Shown here in pieces: positions 11,877-23,308 of a stretch of DNA of 64,000 nt. Position 1 is the first letter of the stretch. Each line of letters starts with the position of its first letter. The DNA is from Bacteroidota bacterium (GTDB lineage: Bacteria > Bacteroidota > Bacteroidia > Flavobacteriales > Flavobacteriaceae). The notes beneath the pieces are model-generated. The model searched no databases and had not been told where the DNA came from. It saw only the letters and a program-made list of their open reading frames with translations. The DNA is taken from assembly GCA_027621175.1 (NCBI GenBank), contig JAQCCM010000001.1:62001-126000 (forward strand), read 5' to 3'. The position numbers and the translations under genes are program-made.

Positions 11877-11909
11877 TTTGGAGGATTTATGTGCGTTTAA
11901 GAGTCGTAA

Positions 11910-11957
11910 GTTTGAGTGAATTTTATAAATATATGTGTAAAATTTGTATCGAAAACT
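11910..11957 (+). repeat. Diverged copy of palindromic repeat module H1
   Basis: The string begins GTTTGAGTGAATTTT and ends TTTGTATCGAAAACT. It matches, with substitutions, the reverse complement of the modules at 20326-20357 and 20773-20813 (GTTCGAGTGATTTTC ... TATCGAGAACT). The centre has drifted. It is followed after 18 bp by module H2. Confidence 0.5.
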
Positions 11958-11975
11958 GATTTTTCTATGTTGAAT

Positions 11976-12019
11976 ACTTCTCGATACATCCCATCAAATT
12001 GTTGGGCCACTCGAAGTGA
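11976..12019 (+). repeat. Palindromic repeat module H2 (44 bp)
   Basis: Begins ACTTCTCGATACATCCC and ends CACTCGAAGTGA; the ends are inverted repeats (ACTTC/GAAGT plus inner TCG pairs). The same 44-bp module, opposite strand, occurs at 20408-20451 with a different centre. This is a hairpin-forming intergenic repeat. Confidence 0.65.
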
Positions 12020-16509: not shown

Positions 16510-16653
16510 ATGTCTATAGCAGTTTTGTGGACGACTTTTGCTAAGATTACCTATTACGAAGAAATTGATTTTATAGATAAAAAATGGACAATCAAAGAAG
16601 GGCAATATGTCTTTTTACATCTGCAAGTGAAAGCAGCTTGTAGTCATTTTTAA
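16510..16653 (+). pseudogene. Truncated ParE/RelE-family toxin, 3' end lost
   Basis: The ATG at 16510 starts a frame reading M-S-I-A-V-L-W-T-T-F-A-K-I-T-Y-Y-E-E-I-D, then F-I-D-K-K-W-T-I-K-E, the N-terminal helix hairpin of plasmid-stabilisation toxins. After codon 30 (about 16599) it continues for 17 codons in sequence that is antisense to the C-terminus of the gene on the other strand, and stops at 16651-16653. A functional toxin has about 95-100 residues, so the beta-sheet and catalytic part are missing. The break coincides with the broken C-terminus of the convergent gene, pointing to a single deletion or recombination joint near 16600. Confidence 0.7.
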
Positions 16654-17770
16654 ACACATAGTCGGGCCAGTTTTCGATTTCCACCTTAATTTCCTGAGCG
16701 CGGATTTTGCCGTTTATGGAAAGTTTTTCTCTGGGGGTTGTAGTTCCAATGCCAACGTTTCCGTTCCCTTTTATAGTCATTCTAAAATCTGCTGAATTTC
16801 CTGTTCTAAAATGGATGTCATCTTGGTCTCTGTTTGTTATTAAATGAAAATGATTATTTATTGATCTTAGCACAGAGTTCGCTGGATCATCGTAGAGAAT
16901 TAATCCTTTATTAACACCAAATCTTGCAGAACCAAAAACATCTAATTTATGTTCTGGGGTTGTGGTGCCAATGCCAACGTTGCCAGAAGCTTTTCTGATA
17001 ACTAACCTTTTATTTGAGTTATCTCCAATATGAAAAAAGTCTCCACCGCCATTTCCAATCCCCATAAACCAATGTGTTGGACCATCAGCACCAAATTGTA
17101 ATATTTTTGAGTAATTTGAATTGTTATTTAATGTTAGTCTTGTACCAGGGTTTGTGGTGCCAATACCAACGTTGCCAGAAGCTTTTCTGATAACTAACCT
17201 TTTGTTTGAGTTATCTCCAATATGAAAAAAGTCGCCACCGCCATTTCCAATCCCCATAAACCAATGTGTTGGGCCATCAGCACCAAATTGTAAGATTTTT
17301 GAGAAATCTAAATTGTTATTCAATGTTAATCTTGTACCAGGATTTGTAGTACCAATGTCAACGTTGCCAGTTTGCCCATCAATAGTCATGCGTTCTAGCC
17401 CACAACAGGCCACAGTTCCTCCAACACGAAAGCGCATTTTAGCTGGATAATTTCCTTTCGAAAAAATACCAGTAGAATACGTTTCAATACGTCCAATTTG
17501 GACATGATTTTTCCCGTCATATCCATTGAAAATGAGTGAGCTGAGAATAACATTATTGGGTGTAGCACTTTTGTTTGAAGCTTTTCCGCCGTAATTCCCC
17601 ATTGACAAATAAGGATGCCCTCCACTAAATAAACCTTGATAATTATATACCCCAAATCCAGGGTATTTACTAGACTTTTGATTTATAGTAAAATGGTCGT
17701 TAGTGGAATTTTGCGCCACCCCCCAAGTACTTACCAAAACAAAAGAAAGCGTGTAAAGTAATGTTTTCAT
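16592..17770 (-). pseudogene. Secreted repeat-containing tail-fibre/adhesin-like protein, C-terminus truncated
   Basis: The product has 392 aa with a signal peptide (to V-A-Q). It has repeated N-V-G-I-G-T-T-x-P segments typical of tail-fibre/endosialidase-chaperone-type surface proteins of Bacteroidota, including two nearly identical 64-residue units. The end reads D-Y-K-L-L-S-L-A-D-V-K-R-H-I then A-L-L-stop. Relatives as I know them continue after H-I with about 60-80 residues including a G-H-L-P motif and a coiled coil. The natural C-terminus is therefore missing, cut at about 16603, exactly where the toxin gene is cut. It may still be expressed. Confidence 0.7.
16974..17357 (-). repeat. 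Tandem duplication, 2 x 192 bp, inside the adhesin-like gene
   Basis: Two in-frame copies, 16974-17165 and 17166-17357, encode the same 64-residue block with few substitutions (N-L-D-F versus N-S-N-Y near position 18). High DNA identity suggests recent duplication and a site for copy-number change by recombination. Confidence 0.85.
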
Positions 17771-19322: not shown

Positions 19323-20324
19323 TTGGACGCATACGCATCGGTAAAGAGTGCTATTTCGCAGCGAAATTTTTCGCCTATTTATTTTTTAATGGGTGATGAG
19401 CCTTTTTTTATTGATGAAATAAGCAAGCTGCTCACCGAAACCGTCTTACCCGAAGACCAACGTGATTTTAATCAAACCATATTGTATGGAAAAGATACAT
19501 CCATAGAAGAAATTGTTTCGGTGTGCAAGCGGTTCCCTATGATGGCAGACTACCAATTGGTAGTGGTGCGAGAAGCACATGAACTCAGTCGTACTATCGA
19601 GCAGTTAACGGCCTATGCCGAGCAGCCACAACCTACAACGGTTTTGGTGATATGTTATAAAAATAAGAAGTTAGATAAGCGTAAAAAACTCTCAAAAGCC
19701 ATTCAAAAAAATGGAACGATTGTAGAAACGAAAAAGCTTTATGACAACAAACTGCCTTCGTGGATAGAACAGCGTGTACATGCTATGAAACGCAGTATCG
19801 ACTACAAAGCGGCGGCGGTGTTGGCAGAAAGCGTAGGGGCGGATTTGGGTACGCTAAACAATCAATTAGATAAGCTATGCCTTGTAGTTGCAGCGGGGGA
19901 TACCATTTCTACGGATCATATCGAACAACATGTGGGTATTAGCAAAGAGTACAATAATTTTGAGTTGCGCAAAGCCTTAGGCACAGGGAATGTGGCACAG
20001 GCATATAAAATTGCACATTACTTTGGGAGGCATCCAAAACAACATCCACTTTTGGGAACCATCAATAGCTTATATGCCTTTTATATGCAGTTGTTGACTT
20101 ACCACGGCTTACCCTCAAAGAACCCGGATACGGCTGCAAAAGCGTTGGGTGTTCATCCGTTTTTTATGAAAGAAGTTGAACAGGCAGCACGACGTTATCC
20201 GCTTAAGTCAATCGTTCCTATTTTGGGGGTTATTAAAAAAGCAGATTTGGCAGCCAAAGGCGTTGATGCCGTTCCAATTTCAGAAGGGGAGGCCTTACAG
20301 CAATTGCTTAGTAAAGTGGCTTAG
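19323..20324 (+). CDS. holA: DNA polymerase III subunit delta
   Basis: The protein has 333 aa. The N-terminus S-P-I-Y-F-L-M-G-D-E-P-F-F-I-D is typical of the clamp-loader delta subunit, which opens the beta clamp. The start is TTG at 19323, because no ATG lies between the divergent gene and the conserved region. Domains follow the AAA+ module I-II plus helical collar order. Its stop is followed within 2 bp by repeat module H1. Confidence 0.9.
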   Translation: MDAYASVKSAISQRNFSPIYFLMGDEPFFIDEISKLLTETVLPEDQRDFNQTILYGKDTSIEEIVSVCKRFPMMADYQLVVVREAHELSRTIEQLTAYAEQPQPTTVLVICYKNKKLDKRKKLSKAIQKNGTIVETKKLYDNKLPSWIEQRVHAMKRSIDYKAAAVLAESVGADLGTLNNQLDKLCLVVAAGDTISTDHIEQHVGISKEYNNFELRKALGTGNVAQAYKIAHYFGRHPKQHPLLGTINSLYAFYMQLLTYHGLPSKNPDTAAKALGVHPFFMKEVEQAARRYPLKSIVPILGVIKKADLAAKGVDAVPISEGEALQQLLSKVA

Positions 20325-20325
20325 C

Positions 20326-20386
20326 AGTTCTCGATACAATTTTCTATCGAAAATCACCTGTCTGCCGACAGGTAGGCTCGAACTGA
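20326..20386 (+). repeat. Repeat module H1 with an inserted small palindrome
   Basis: Begins AGTTCTCGATACAATTTTCT and runs to TATCGAAAATCAC at 20357; this 32-bp part is identical to 20773-20804. At that point 20 bp (20358-20377) are inserted, then the module resumes TCGAACTGA. The insert together with the preceding C forms the hairpin CCTGTC-TGCC-GACAGG (20357-20372). Confidence 0.8.
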
Positions 20387-20407
20387 TAAGGTTTAGATGT
20401 GGTACTG

Positions 20408-20451
20408 TCACTTCGAGTATTCCGGCGGTACGTCGGGATGTATCGAGAAGT
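20408..20451 (-). repeat. Palindromic repeat module H2 (44 bp)
   Basis: On the minus strand it begins ACTTCTCGATACATCCC and ends ATACTCGAAGTGA, the same 44-bp module as 11976-12019 with a different centre (GACGTACCGCCGG). It lies 20 bp after module H1. Confidence 0.75.
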
Positions 20452-20482
20452 TTACGTACAATTTGTACATTTAAATTATAAA

Positions 20483-20771
20483 ATGTTATCATGTTTATAT
20501 ATTAAAGTGTGCAGATAACACCTATTACACAGGTATAACATCAGATTTAGAAAAAAGAATCTCTGAACATGAATCAGGAGCGTATAAAAATAGTTACACC
20601 TACTTTAGGCGACCCGTTGAGCTTGTATTTTTTGCTGAATTTACAAATGTAGATTTAGCTATAGCCATGGAAAAACAGATAAAGAAATGGTCACGAGTTA
20701 AAAAGGAGGCACTGATAAATGGAACGTTTGCTCATTTACCGAATTTGTCTAAAAAGAATTTTAAAAAATAG
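20483..20771 (+). pseudogene. GIY-YIG endonuclease-family gene with a one-base shift after its start codon
   Basis: From 20487 the frame reads Y-H-V-Y-I-L-K-C-A-D-N-T-Y-Y-T-G-I, then T-S-D-L-E-K-R-I-S-E-H and on to a TAG at 20769-20771, about 95 residues, the usual size. V-Y-I and Y-Y-T-G-I are the GIY-YIG signature, with Arg and His of the next helix and a later Glu in E-K-Q-I-K-K-W. No ATG, GTG or TTG precedes it in frame after TAA at 20472. An ATG lies at 20483-20485, out of frame by one T (20486); removing it gives M-Y-H-V-Y-I-L-K. So either the start is broken, a sequencing error is present, or a rare ATT/ATA start is used. Copies of repeat module H1 lie on both sides. Confidence 0.72.
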
Positions 20772-20772
20772 T

Positions 20773-20813
20773 AGTTCTCGATACAATTTTCTATCGAAAA
20801 TCACTCGAACTGA
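20773..20813 (+). repeat. Repeat module H1, uninterrupted copy
   Basis: Begins AGTTCTCGATACAATTTTCT, continues TATCGAAAATCACTCGAACTGA and ends at 20813-20814. It can fold as a hairpin (ATTTTC/GAAAAT around TATC, outer TTCTCGA/TCGAA). It starts 1 bp after the GIY-YIG stop codon. Confidence 0.8.
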
Positions 20814-20819
20814 CAACTA

Positions 20820-20880
20820 GCCTAACTACTACTGCCTATTGCCTAATCACTATTGCCTATTGCCTAACAACTATTGCCTC
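20820..20880. repeat. Short direct repeats of the type TATTGCCTA
   Basis: Seven imperfect units of A-C-T-A-(A/T)-T-G-C-C-T-A type occur in about 60 bp, ending next to the E1 stop codon. A similar array is at 48921-48983 beside the hisIE stop. No coding potential is seen. Confidence 0.65.
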
Positions 20881-20882
20881 TC

Positions 20883-23291
20883 CTACAGTGCAGGAAACTG
20901 ATTTGGTTTTGCCTCGTGCATGATGGCATATACCGCTTCTACAATGTCCTCAACAGAAGGTTTTGAGAAATAATCTCCATCCGTGCCGTATGCTGGGCGA
21001 TGGTCTTTGGCGGTTAGCAATGTGGGTTGGCTATCTAAATGCTGATATATATGTTGTTTTGCTAGTAATTGACTTAGAATATAGGCGCTTCCACCGCCAG
21101 GAACATCCTCATCTACGATGAGTAAACGATTCGTTTTTTGGACACTCGCTCCAATAACTGCGGTTGAGTCGAATGGAATGAGCGATTGTACATCGACTAC
21201 TTCAGCGTTAATGTCCATTTTCATCAATTTTTCTACTGCGGATTGTACCAGGCGTAGGGTAGAGCCGTAGGATACAATGGTAATATCTGTACCTGTGCGT
21301 AACTGTTCAGCTACGCCAATAGGGACGGTAAACTCGCCAAAGTTTTCCGGTTGTTTTTCTTTAAGTCGATAGCCGTTAAGTGGCTCAATAACTAGGGCAG
21401 GATCACGACCTTGTAGGAGTGTATTGTACATGCCACTTGCTTGGGTGAGGTTTCGCGGTACTAATATATACATCCCTCGTAGTAAACTCACCAATCCACC
21501 CATAGGTGATCCCGAGTGCCAAATCCCTTCTAAACGATGTCCACGTGTCCTAATAATTAGCGGAGCGGCTTGTTTCCCTCTTGTACGATAATGCAATGTT
21601 GCCAAATCATCGGACATGAGTTGTAGGGCATAGAGCACGTAATCTAAGTATTGAATTTCAGCAATCGGACGTAAGCCCCTAAATGCCATCCCGATACCTT
21701 CGCCAATGATGGTTGCTTCACGAATACCTCGATCGGCTACACGTTCCTCCCCATAAATTTCTTGCAGCCCCTCAAGCCCTTGGTTTACATCGCCAATTTT
21801 TCCACTGTCTTCTCCAAAAACAAGCATTTTTGGATGTTTTTTTAGCAATGCATTAAAATTATCACGCAGCACCACACGTCCGTCAACCAAAGCGGTTTCA
21901 TCAGCGTATTTTGCAGGAATTGTACTAACGTTTAAAGATGAATTTTCAAACGTATTGTAAAGCGAATCGCTATATAATGCTTGGGTTTCTTGTTGTTTGT
22001 TTTTCCACCAATCGGCTAGTGCAGACCTTGCTTGGGTGTTTTTTCCTTTAGTCAAAAATAAGGTCTCACGAACTGCAGTATAGATAGACTTTCGATAAAC
22101 TAGGCTCTTTTTGCTCAGCGATGATGCTAGGGCTGTAAGGGTATTCGTGTCTGGGAATTCCTGCGCTACTTGCTGTAACAAAATTTGCGCATCTTTTTGT
22201 TCTGCCTGAATGGGAGCTAAATAGGCATCCCAAGCGGATGTTTTGGCTTCTCTTACCGCTGTTATTGCTTTCTCTTCAAGAGCTATAATTTCGGATTCTG
22301 TAGCCATGTTTTGAGCAATAATCCATTTTCTAAAGGTAGTATTACAATCAAACTCCTTTTCCCATGACAATCGCTCACTAGACTTATAGCGTTCATGCGA
22401 ACCAGATGTGGAATGCCCAAGGGGTTGTGTGAGTTCAGTAACGTGTACCAAAACAGGGACGTGTTCTGTTCGTGCTACATTACTTGCCCGTGTATAAGCA
22501 TTGATAAGAGCAGGATAATCCCAACCCACAACCTCTATGATTTCAAGTCCTTTGGCATTTTCGTTACGCTGCATGCCTGCCATAGCTTTTGAAATGCTTT
22601 CTTTAACCGTTTGAAAAGAATTGTCAACAGAAATGCCGTATCCATCGTCCCAAACGCTAATCACCAACGGCACCTGCAACACGCCTGCAGCGTTTAGGGT
22701 TTCAAAAAACAAGCCTTCACTAGTACTAGCATTTCCAATGGTGCCCCATGCGACTTCATTTCCATCATTCGAGAGGGAACTGTCTTGCATGCAAGCTACC
22801 TTTCGAAAAAGTTTTGATGCATGCGCTAATCCAAGTAAACGAGGCATTTGAGCTGCTGTACATGAAACATCTGAATAGGAATTTTTTGTTTCAACCAGCG
22901 GAAGTAAATTTCCTTTACTGTCAAGCGTATCTGTGTTAAAATGACCCACCATTTGCCTTCCTGAAGACATGGGCTCAGCAATGGGGTCGGCGTGACCATA
23001 TACACTTGCAAAAATATGATTGGGCTTGAGGGCGCCAATCGCCATCATAAAGGTTTGATCACGGTAGTACCCCGATCTAAAATCACCATTTTGAAAGACT
23101 TTTGCCATGGCAATTTGTGCGAGTTCTTTGCCGTCGCCAAAAATGCCAAATTTACCTTTTCCGGAAAGCACTTCTTTTCTGCCCAATATACTTACCTGAC
23201 GACTCAACGAAGCAATATAGAAATCGTTTAAGATATCTTTTTTAAAATCGTCAAAGGTGCCTTTAGAGGAGGCAAGGTTTACGCTTTTCAT
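20883..23291 (-). CDS. 2-oxoacid dehydrogenase E1 component, fused alpha and beta subunits
   Basis: The protein has 802 aa from the ATG at 23289-23291; an upstream TTG falls inside the -7 box and is rejected. Residues 1-400 are the E1 alpha part (G-T-I-G-N-A-S-T-S-E-G, thiamine diphosphate site, and G-H-S-T-S-G phosphorylation-loop-like motif). Residues 470-800 are the beta part (F-G-E-D-S-G, R-G-I-R-E-A-T-I-I-G-E-G). It decarboxylates a branched-chain 2-oxoacid or pyruvate and passes the acyl group to an E2. E2 and E3 genes are not nearby, so the substrate is not settled. Confidence 0.9.
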   Translation of the reverse strand: MKSVNLASSKGTFDDFKKDILNDFYIASLSRQVSILGRKEVLSGKGKFGIFGDGKELAQIAMAKVFQNGDFRSGYYRDQTFMMAIGALKPNHIFASVYGHADPIAEPMSSGRQMVGHFNTDTLDSKGNLLPLVETKNSYSDVSCTAAQMPRLLGLAHASKLFRKVACMQDSSLSNDGNEVAWGTIGNASTSEGLFFETLNAAGVLQVPLVISVWDDGYGISVDNSFQTVKESISKAMAGMQRNENAKGLEIIEVVGWDYPALINAYTRASNVARTEHVPVLVHVTELTQPLGHSTSGSHERYKSSERLSWEKEFDCNTTFRKWIIAQNMATESEIIALEEKAITAVREAKTSAWDAYLAPIQAEQKDAQILLQQVAQEFPDTNTLTALASSLSKKSLVYRKSIYTAVRETLFLTKGKNTQARSALADWWKNKQQETQALYSDSLYNTFENSSLNVSTIPAKYADETALVDGRVVLRDNFNALLKKHPKMLVFGEDSGKIGDVNQGLEGLQEIYGEERVADRGIREATIIGEGIGMAFRGLRPIAEIQYLDYVLYALQLMSDDLATLHYRTRGKQAAPLIIRTRGHRLEGIWHSGSPMGGLVSLLRGMYILVPRNLTQASGMYNTLLQGRDPALVIEPLNGYRLKEKQPENFGEFTVPIGVAEQLRTGTDITIVSYGSTLRLVQSAVEKLMKMDINAEVVDVQSLIPFDSTAVIGASVQKTNRLLIVDEDVPGGGSAYILSQLLAKQHIYQHLDSQPTLLTAKDHRPAYGTDGDYFSKPSVEDIVEAVYAIMHEAKPNQFPAL

Positions 23292-23300
23292 AAAGTATGG

Positions 23301-23308
23301 CAAATTTA
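23301..23308 (-). promoter_or_regulatory. -7 box TAAATTTG for the E1 gene
   Basis: It matches TAnnTTTG and lies 9 bp before the ATG at 23291, so the mRNA leader would be only a few bases. It decides against the TTG start at 23303. Confidence 0.5.

Follow-up and report, generated by a model that had tools for sequence, protein, structure and literature searches.

A GIY-YIG nuclease gene framed by hairpin repeats in Flavobacteriaceae: association and co-variation of enzyme and repeat suggest a small selfish element

Why should a small nuclease gene sit between copies of a palindromic repeat? The question is raised by a GIY-YIG gene of 97-98 codons (20478-20771, forward strand) in a 64,000-nucleotide stretch of a Flavobacteriaceae genome, the whole of which we call the window. 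The initial annotation had described direct copies of a palindromic module on both sides of this gene, a second palindrome between the left copy and the gene, and solo modules elsewhere, and it had likened the layout to REP-associated elements. The observation as a whole was confirmed, and the interpretation is partly supported. Two module copies do flank the gene, as direct repeats of 36 nt that are 97% identical (20322-20357 and 20769-20804); their 32-bp core is identical, and its right copy begins at 20773, 1 bp past the stop codon (20769-20771).

The left copy is part of a G-type module in reverse orientation (module A-left, 20327-20388, reverse strand, GTTCTCGATAC...CTCGAACTGA, delimited by sequence, repeat search and folding). 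It has a degenerate head, TGATAA, and is split at about 20358-20376 by another palindrome, CTGTCTGCCGACAGGTAGG; a congener (G001) carries a near-identical interrupted copy on its own at the same site. Palindromes of this CCTGCCTGCC...GGCAGGCAGG type sit within other hairpin modules at window positions 20358-20376, at locus L006 and at the same site in G001. The second palindrome is a C-type module in forward orientation (module B, 20406-20450, forward strand, C28:82407-82449, TGTCACTTCGAGT...GTATCGAGAAG, delimited by sequence, pattern search and folding), with a hairpin of -17.3 kcal/mol, and it is the upstream partner of the gene. The downstream partner, module A-right (20774-20814, reverse strand), is of G type and starts 1-2 bp past the stop codon. 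The whole arrangement lies between a holA-like gene (DNA polymerase III delta; 19323-20324, forward strand), named by sequence resemblance, and a 2-oxoacid dehydrogenase-like gene (20883-23303, reverse strand). A short array of 21-bp tandem repeats (GCCTAACTACTACTGCCTATT) occupies 20820-20882, and its relatives persist in several congeners at an otherwise gene-less holA site. Further upstream, a 192-bp tandem repeat (16956-17339) lies in frame within the open reading frame at 16592-17770, which encodes a predicted protein.

The solo modules exist, but they are diverged relatives in an inverted pair (11903-12019) rather than copies of the 32-mer. A degenerate G-type forward module (11903-11957, forward strand, from sequence and folding) and a C-type reverse module (11977-12019, reverse strand, from sequence, repeat search and folding) form a gene-less dimer, which folding places tail-to-tail with heads outward, leaving about 20 bp where a gene would sit. 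In the window's genome, a draft of 1.73 Mb that is 86% complete and in which repeats were counted by pattern searches, the 30-mer recurs only at C38:119 and C38:282; each of these copies has one mismatch, and both belong to a gene-less cluster.

The open reading frame matches PF01541 at 5e-18 (65.6 bits against a cut-off of 22.6), and the residues that are invariant in the family (Y7, Y17, R27, H31 and E65) are all intact in the window copy, which places it in the GIY-YIG superfamily. Its predicted fold agrees with GIY-YIG structures (AlphaFold model, pLDDT 84). The best matches in sequence and fold are UPF0213 proteins (YhbQ-like; PDB 1ZG2 and 1YWL), with Slx1 also among the best; NCBIfam has no model for the window protein. 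The window reading frame has no ATG, GTG or TTG start, and its first codon would be ATA at 20478 or ATT at 20475, where the congener G003 has ATG at the codon read as ATA in the window. Because the ATG start is lost, the window copy is probably poorly expressed, and it may be silent. Purifying selection on the protein is seen in one clean pair (L117/L122, dN/dS 0.028), and the window copy differs from that of G003 by few non-synonymous changes (pN 0.15), with synonymous sites saturated (pS 0.80). Another locus in the window's genome (L010, G000:C9:1342-1542) holds a GIY-YIG pseudogene with two internal stops that adjoins a tRNA-like sequence.

The framing of the nuclease gene by repeats is not local chance. 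A profile built from 13 relatives recovered 80 loci, mostly in Flavobacteriaceae, and a locus was scored as positive when 12-mers were common to both 500-bp flanks of the gene. Such repeats were found in 66 of the 76 relatives with both flanks available, against 40 of 3063 control windows (1.3%) in the same loci, an excess of roughly 65-fold; the other 10 homologues had no shared repeats within the test distance. Among unselected short GIY-YIG genes from 60 genera, 53 of 89 were positive (three of the 89 come from the window's own genome), compared with 0 of 20 uvrC genes and, on viral contigs, 1 of 34 relatives. Three GIY-YIG loci (L226, L234 and L258) have on each side a duplicated stretch resembling the start of an NAD-binding epimerase gene.

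The modules themselves follow the gene closely, at 3.3 per kb within 500 bp of it and 0.12 per kb farther out. Taking at least 120 bits as the mark of a close homologue, strict modules occurred in 17 of the 18 genomes with one (median 8.5) versus 32 of the 101 without (median 0; p = 5e-9). The tie between repeats and GIY-YIG genes beyond the window, on which the initial annotation had staked its reading, is strong, and a set of repeats unlinked to such genes was not what we saw. Ten of the 101 genomes without a close homologue carry at least 10 modules, and a gene-less congener (G010) carries 13. Since modules can be abundant in gene-less genomes, they do not depend on the gene to persist, and they probably outlast it after gene loss.

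In relatives the module has the consensus YGTCA-S-TTCGAGTG, a variable inner stem, and GTATCGAGAA-S'. The head is TGTC on modules B and A-right of the window and CGTC or TGTC in relatives, the inner segment varies from 20 to 51 nt (5th-95th percentile), the tail is GAAC or GAAG, and modules fold best when the head is 5'. The outermost pair S..S' is G..C in 158 modules, C..G in 138 and G..G in none; this flip mainly reflects two old subfamilies, and the rarer variants are mostly uncompensated. The inner stems are diverse (280 distinct among 338) and their complementarity is kept, with at least 7 of 8 pairs formed in 44% of modules versus 2.5% after halves were swapped between modules. Neighbouring head-to-head modules are of opposite type in 50 cases and of the same type in 8. 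Bracketing by direct copies holds in the window but is not the rule elsewhere: among 53 relatives with a close module on each side, the inverted heads-out order is the commonest (25), the two direct orders account for 14 and 10, and the other inverted order for 4. The single exception among the 18 genomes with a close homologue (G069) has a strict module count of 0, its modules having a CGTTG head; around its locus L347, every nearby module shares CGTTG in place of CGTCA, as if copies evolve in concert.

Does each enzyme have its own repeat? Repeat labels were assigned from flanking DNA alone, using neither proteins nor tree, with patterns that were written after inspection of the flanks, which is a weakness of the procedure. 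When 12 labels for 102 genes were placed on the protein tree, 16 changes were needed, where the minimum is 11 and shuffled labels gave a mean of 67.7 (0 of 200 shuffles as low). To remove the effect of species, the shuffling of labels was confined to paralogues of the same genome: the observed changes numbered 14 versus 35.7 expected, the lowest of 1000 shuffles being 28 (0 of 1000 as low), and leaving out the tRNA label gave 13 versus 28.2. In one genome (G080) each of the seven GIY-YIG paralogues has a palindrome of its own, and the window's own genome has three paralogues with three kinds of flank. Because repeat type and enzyme co-vary, we infer that the enzyme recognises the repeats; that each nuclease branch has its own repeat suggests, on these sequence comparisons, that the pair forms a small selfish element. 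As an association, the proposal of the initial annotation that a GIY-YIG gene takes the place of a Y1 transposase in a REP-style element is strongly supported by the flank enrichment, the tree and the paralogue shuffles. Genes of a sister GIY-YIG clade (L007 at G000:C28:52885, L219, L231, L237, L239, L242 and L255) are located within tRNA genes or next to them, accompanied by partial tRNA duplications; they often form tandem pairs spaced by about 310-360 bp.

The window site, a gap between the convergent holA-like and dehydrogenase-like genes, was compared in 17 congeners. In 8 of the 17 the site is closed, the two stop codons overlapping by 4 nt with nothing between. Modules plus the gene are present in the window's genome (G000) and in G003; G014 has a remnant, G002, G006 and G009 a short scar with the tandem array, and G013 the array alone. 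The gene-less site with a single repeat unit that the initial annotation had anticipated was found in G001, whose one module is split like the left copy of the window, and G010 has a gene-less site with two. Most of the genomes compared are drafts, and repeats that collapsed during assembly could have introduced errors; at the closed sites, however, the sequence runs straight from one stop codon into the next. These states are interleaved on the holA/dehydrogenase tree, which implies repeated gain, repeated loss or both, and vertical loss and repeated gain at this site cannot be told apart with the present data. The site of the solo pair, upstream of a bshA-like gene, also varies: G000 and G006 carry the pair within an insert of about 185 bp, in 10 congeners the pair is missing and the gap measures 67-84 bp, and in G003 the module array is a different one. 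Two Flavobacterium species share a 424-bp module-gene-module block that is 92% identical and bounded by module heads; it is found on one side of a neighbour gene in one species and on the other side of that gene in the other. More broadly, the nuclease gene is patchy within the genus, and the 80 loci have 56 distinct pairs of neighbours, with a few sites common within or between genera.

We think it probable that the locus pairs a small site-specific nuclease with the repeats that it targets. This single-domain protein of 97 aa would recognise the hairpin module that frames its gene, most likely in single-stranded form or as an extruded hairpin, and would then nick it. In the core unit the gene would stand between a forward and a reverse module, with heads outward, and the gene-less module pairs would be scattered dependent copies. 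Breaks at modules, mended by recombination between modules, would lead to the unit being copied, deleted and shuffled, and in this manner we infer that the nuclease moves the gene. The recognition step is common to another reading, a domesticated role like that of Ssn, in which the repeats would be cut in incoming or replicating single-stranded DNA, tuning DNA uptake or recombination, and mobility would be incidental; purpose and spread are where the two differ. We hold this second reading as a tentative possibility. The strong purifying selection is consistent with it, as are the framing of a Neisseria gonorrhoeae homologue from the same GIY-YIG group by dRS3-like CGTC repeats and the control of transformation that a Ssn nuclease reportedly exerts in Neisseria, whereas the patchy presence in the genus, the 56 neighbourhoods and the lost start codon point to a dispensable, moving unit.

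The remaining alternatives appear improbable to us. REP-like hairpins and small selfish genes could gather passively in tolerant intergenic gaps, with an enzyme that is inert toward the repeats, and modules do occur far from GIY-YIG genes and in genomes without a close homologue; yet this account, which we doubt strongly, predicts neither the enrichment relative to control windows of these loci nor the different palindromes that paralogues of one genome carry in accordance with their protein clade, and is already strained. It is equally unlikely that the hairpins serve the nuclease transcript as RNA signals (terminator, stabiliser or leader). In the window and many relatives one hairpin shortly precedes the start and another directly follows the stop, which would suit such a role, as would the better folding with the head 5', but modules occur in both orientations and in many-copy gene-less arrays, and a search of Rfam gave no match. 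Little speaks, finally, for a classical GIY-YIG homing endonuclease whose repeats are homing scars: the fold would fit, and so would the sister clade associated with tRNA genes and their partial duplications, but homing endonucleases interrupt, and hence protect, their own target, and here intact copies of the putative target lie on both sides of a gene that is intergenic rather than inside an intron or another gene.

How does the element proposed here compare with known systems? The nearest in sequence and fold are the UPF0213/YhbQ-like proteins, of which B. subtilis yazA, a GIY-YIG gene recovered by the same protein search, differs in having no flanking hairpins. The Ssn nucleases, reportedly described in Nat Commun in 2025, are said to cut single-stranded DNA at repeats in Neisseria and to control transformation there. 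As with Ssn, a small stand-alone GIY-YIG protein is surrounded by repeated, here putative, target sites that co-vary with the enzyme; the flavobacterial module differs in its greater length, its variable stem and its two types of end, which are complementary to each other. The N. gonorrhoeae homologue, which may be Ssn, is 49.5% identical to L246, a member of the TTCCTGC clade that is the sister group of the window clade, and its framing hairpin is dRS3-like (CGTCATTCCCGCGCAGGCGGGAATC). Among the papers available to our literature search, none linked GIY-YIG genes to REPs in Flavobacteria; the claim to novelty is limited by the Ssn study, which may already cover part of these findings.

A second comparison is with the CGTC-tagged REPs, hairpins in which the head, CGTC or TGTC, is unpaired; they occur in dimers in Bacteroidetes, Neisseria and alpha-Proteobacteria, are said to lack a dedicated enzyme and are not associated with transposase genes (Di Nocera, 2013, PMC3733652). 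Neisseria CGTC-1 has been equated with dRS3 in the same work (Di Nocera, 2013, PMC3733652). The unpaired head of families 1-4 (CGTC, TGTC or CCTC) is present in the window and its relatives; their stem of 8-9 bp, loop of 4-5 nt and CCA-like tail are not, the window modules being 41-62 nt long, with an inner segment outside the stated stem and loop and no CCA tail. In four Proteobacterial genera, GIY-YIG genes are likewise framed by CGTC- or CCTC-headed hairpins (Neisseria, with N. gonorrhoeae; Azospirillum, with A. lipoferum; Sinorhizobium, with S. meliloti; and Novosphingobium), a handful of cases that carry no control count. Matched enzyme-repeat pairs in 60 genera of one family and four Proteobacteria provide a candidate enzyme for CGTC REPs. 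It is conceivable, if doubtful, that GIY-YIG nucleases are the missing enzymes of these REPs, which would then be autonomous hairpin elements without a transposase, spread by cuts in their own repeats and subsequent repair, with gene-less heads-out dimers as dependents. The roughly eleven distinct enzyme-repeat pairs that occur naturally, as many as seven of them in one genome, lend themselves to tests of cleavage and specificity; if the enzymes cut, they would make up a natural set of small nucleases specific for a sequence or a hairpin. The last comparison is with REPtrons, which join REPs to a RAYT tyrosine transposase. The sole gene between the window repeats encodes an enzyme of GIY-YIG fold and not a Y1/HUH transposase, and its mobility is conditional on the reading given above; what the two systems have in common is that hairpin REPs frame an enzyme gene, that the enzymes are, here putatively, repeat-specific, and that dimers without the enzyme lie scattered in the genome.
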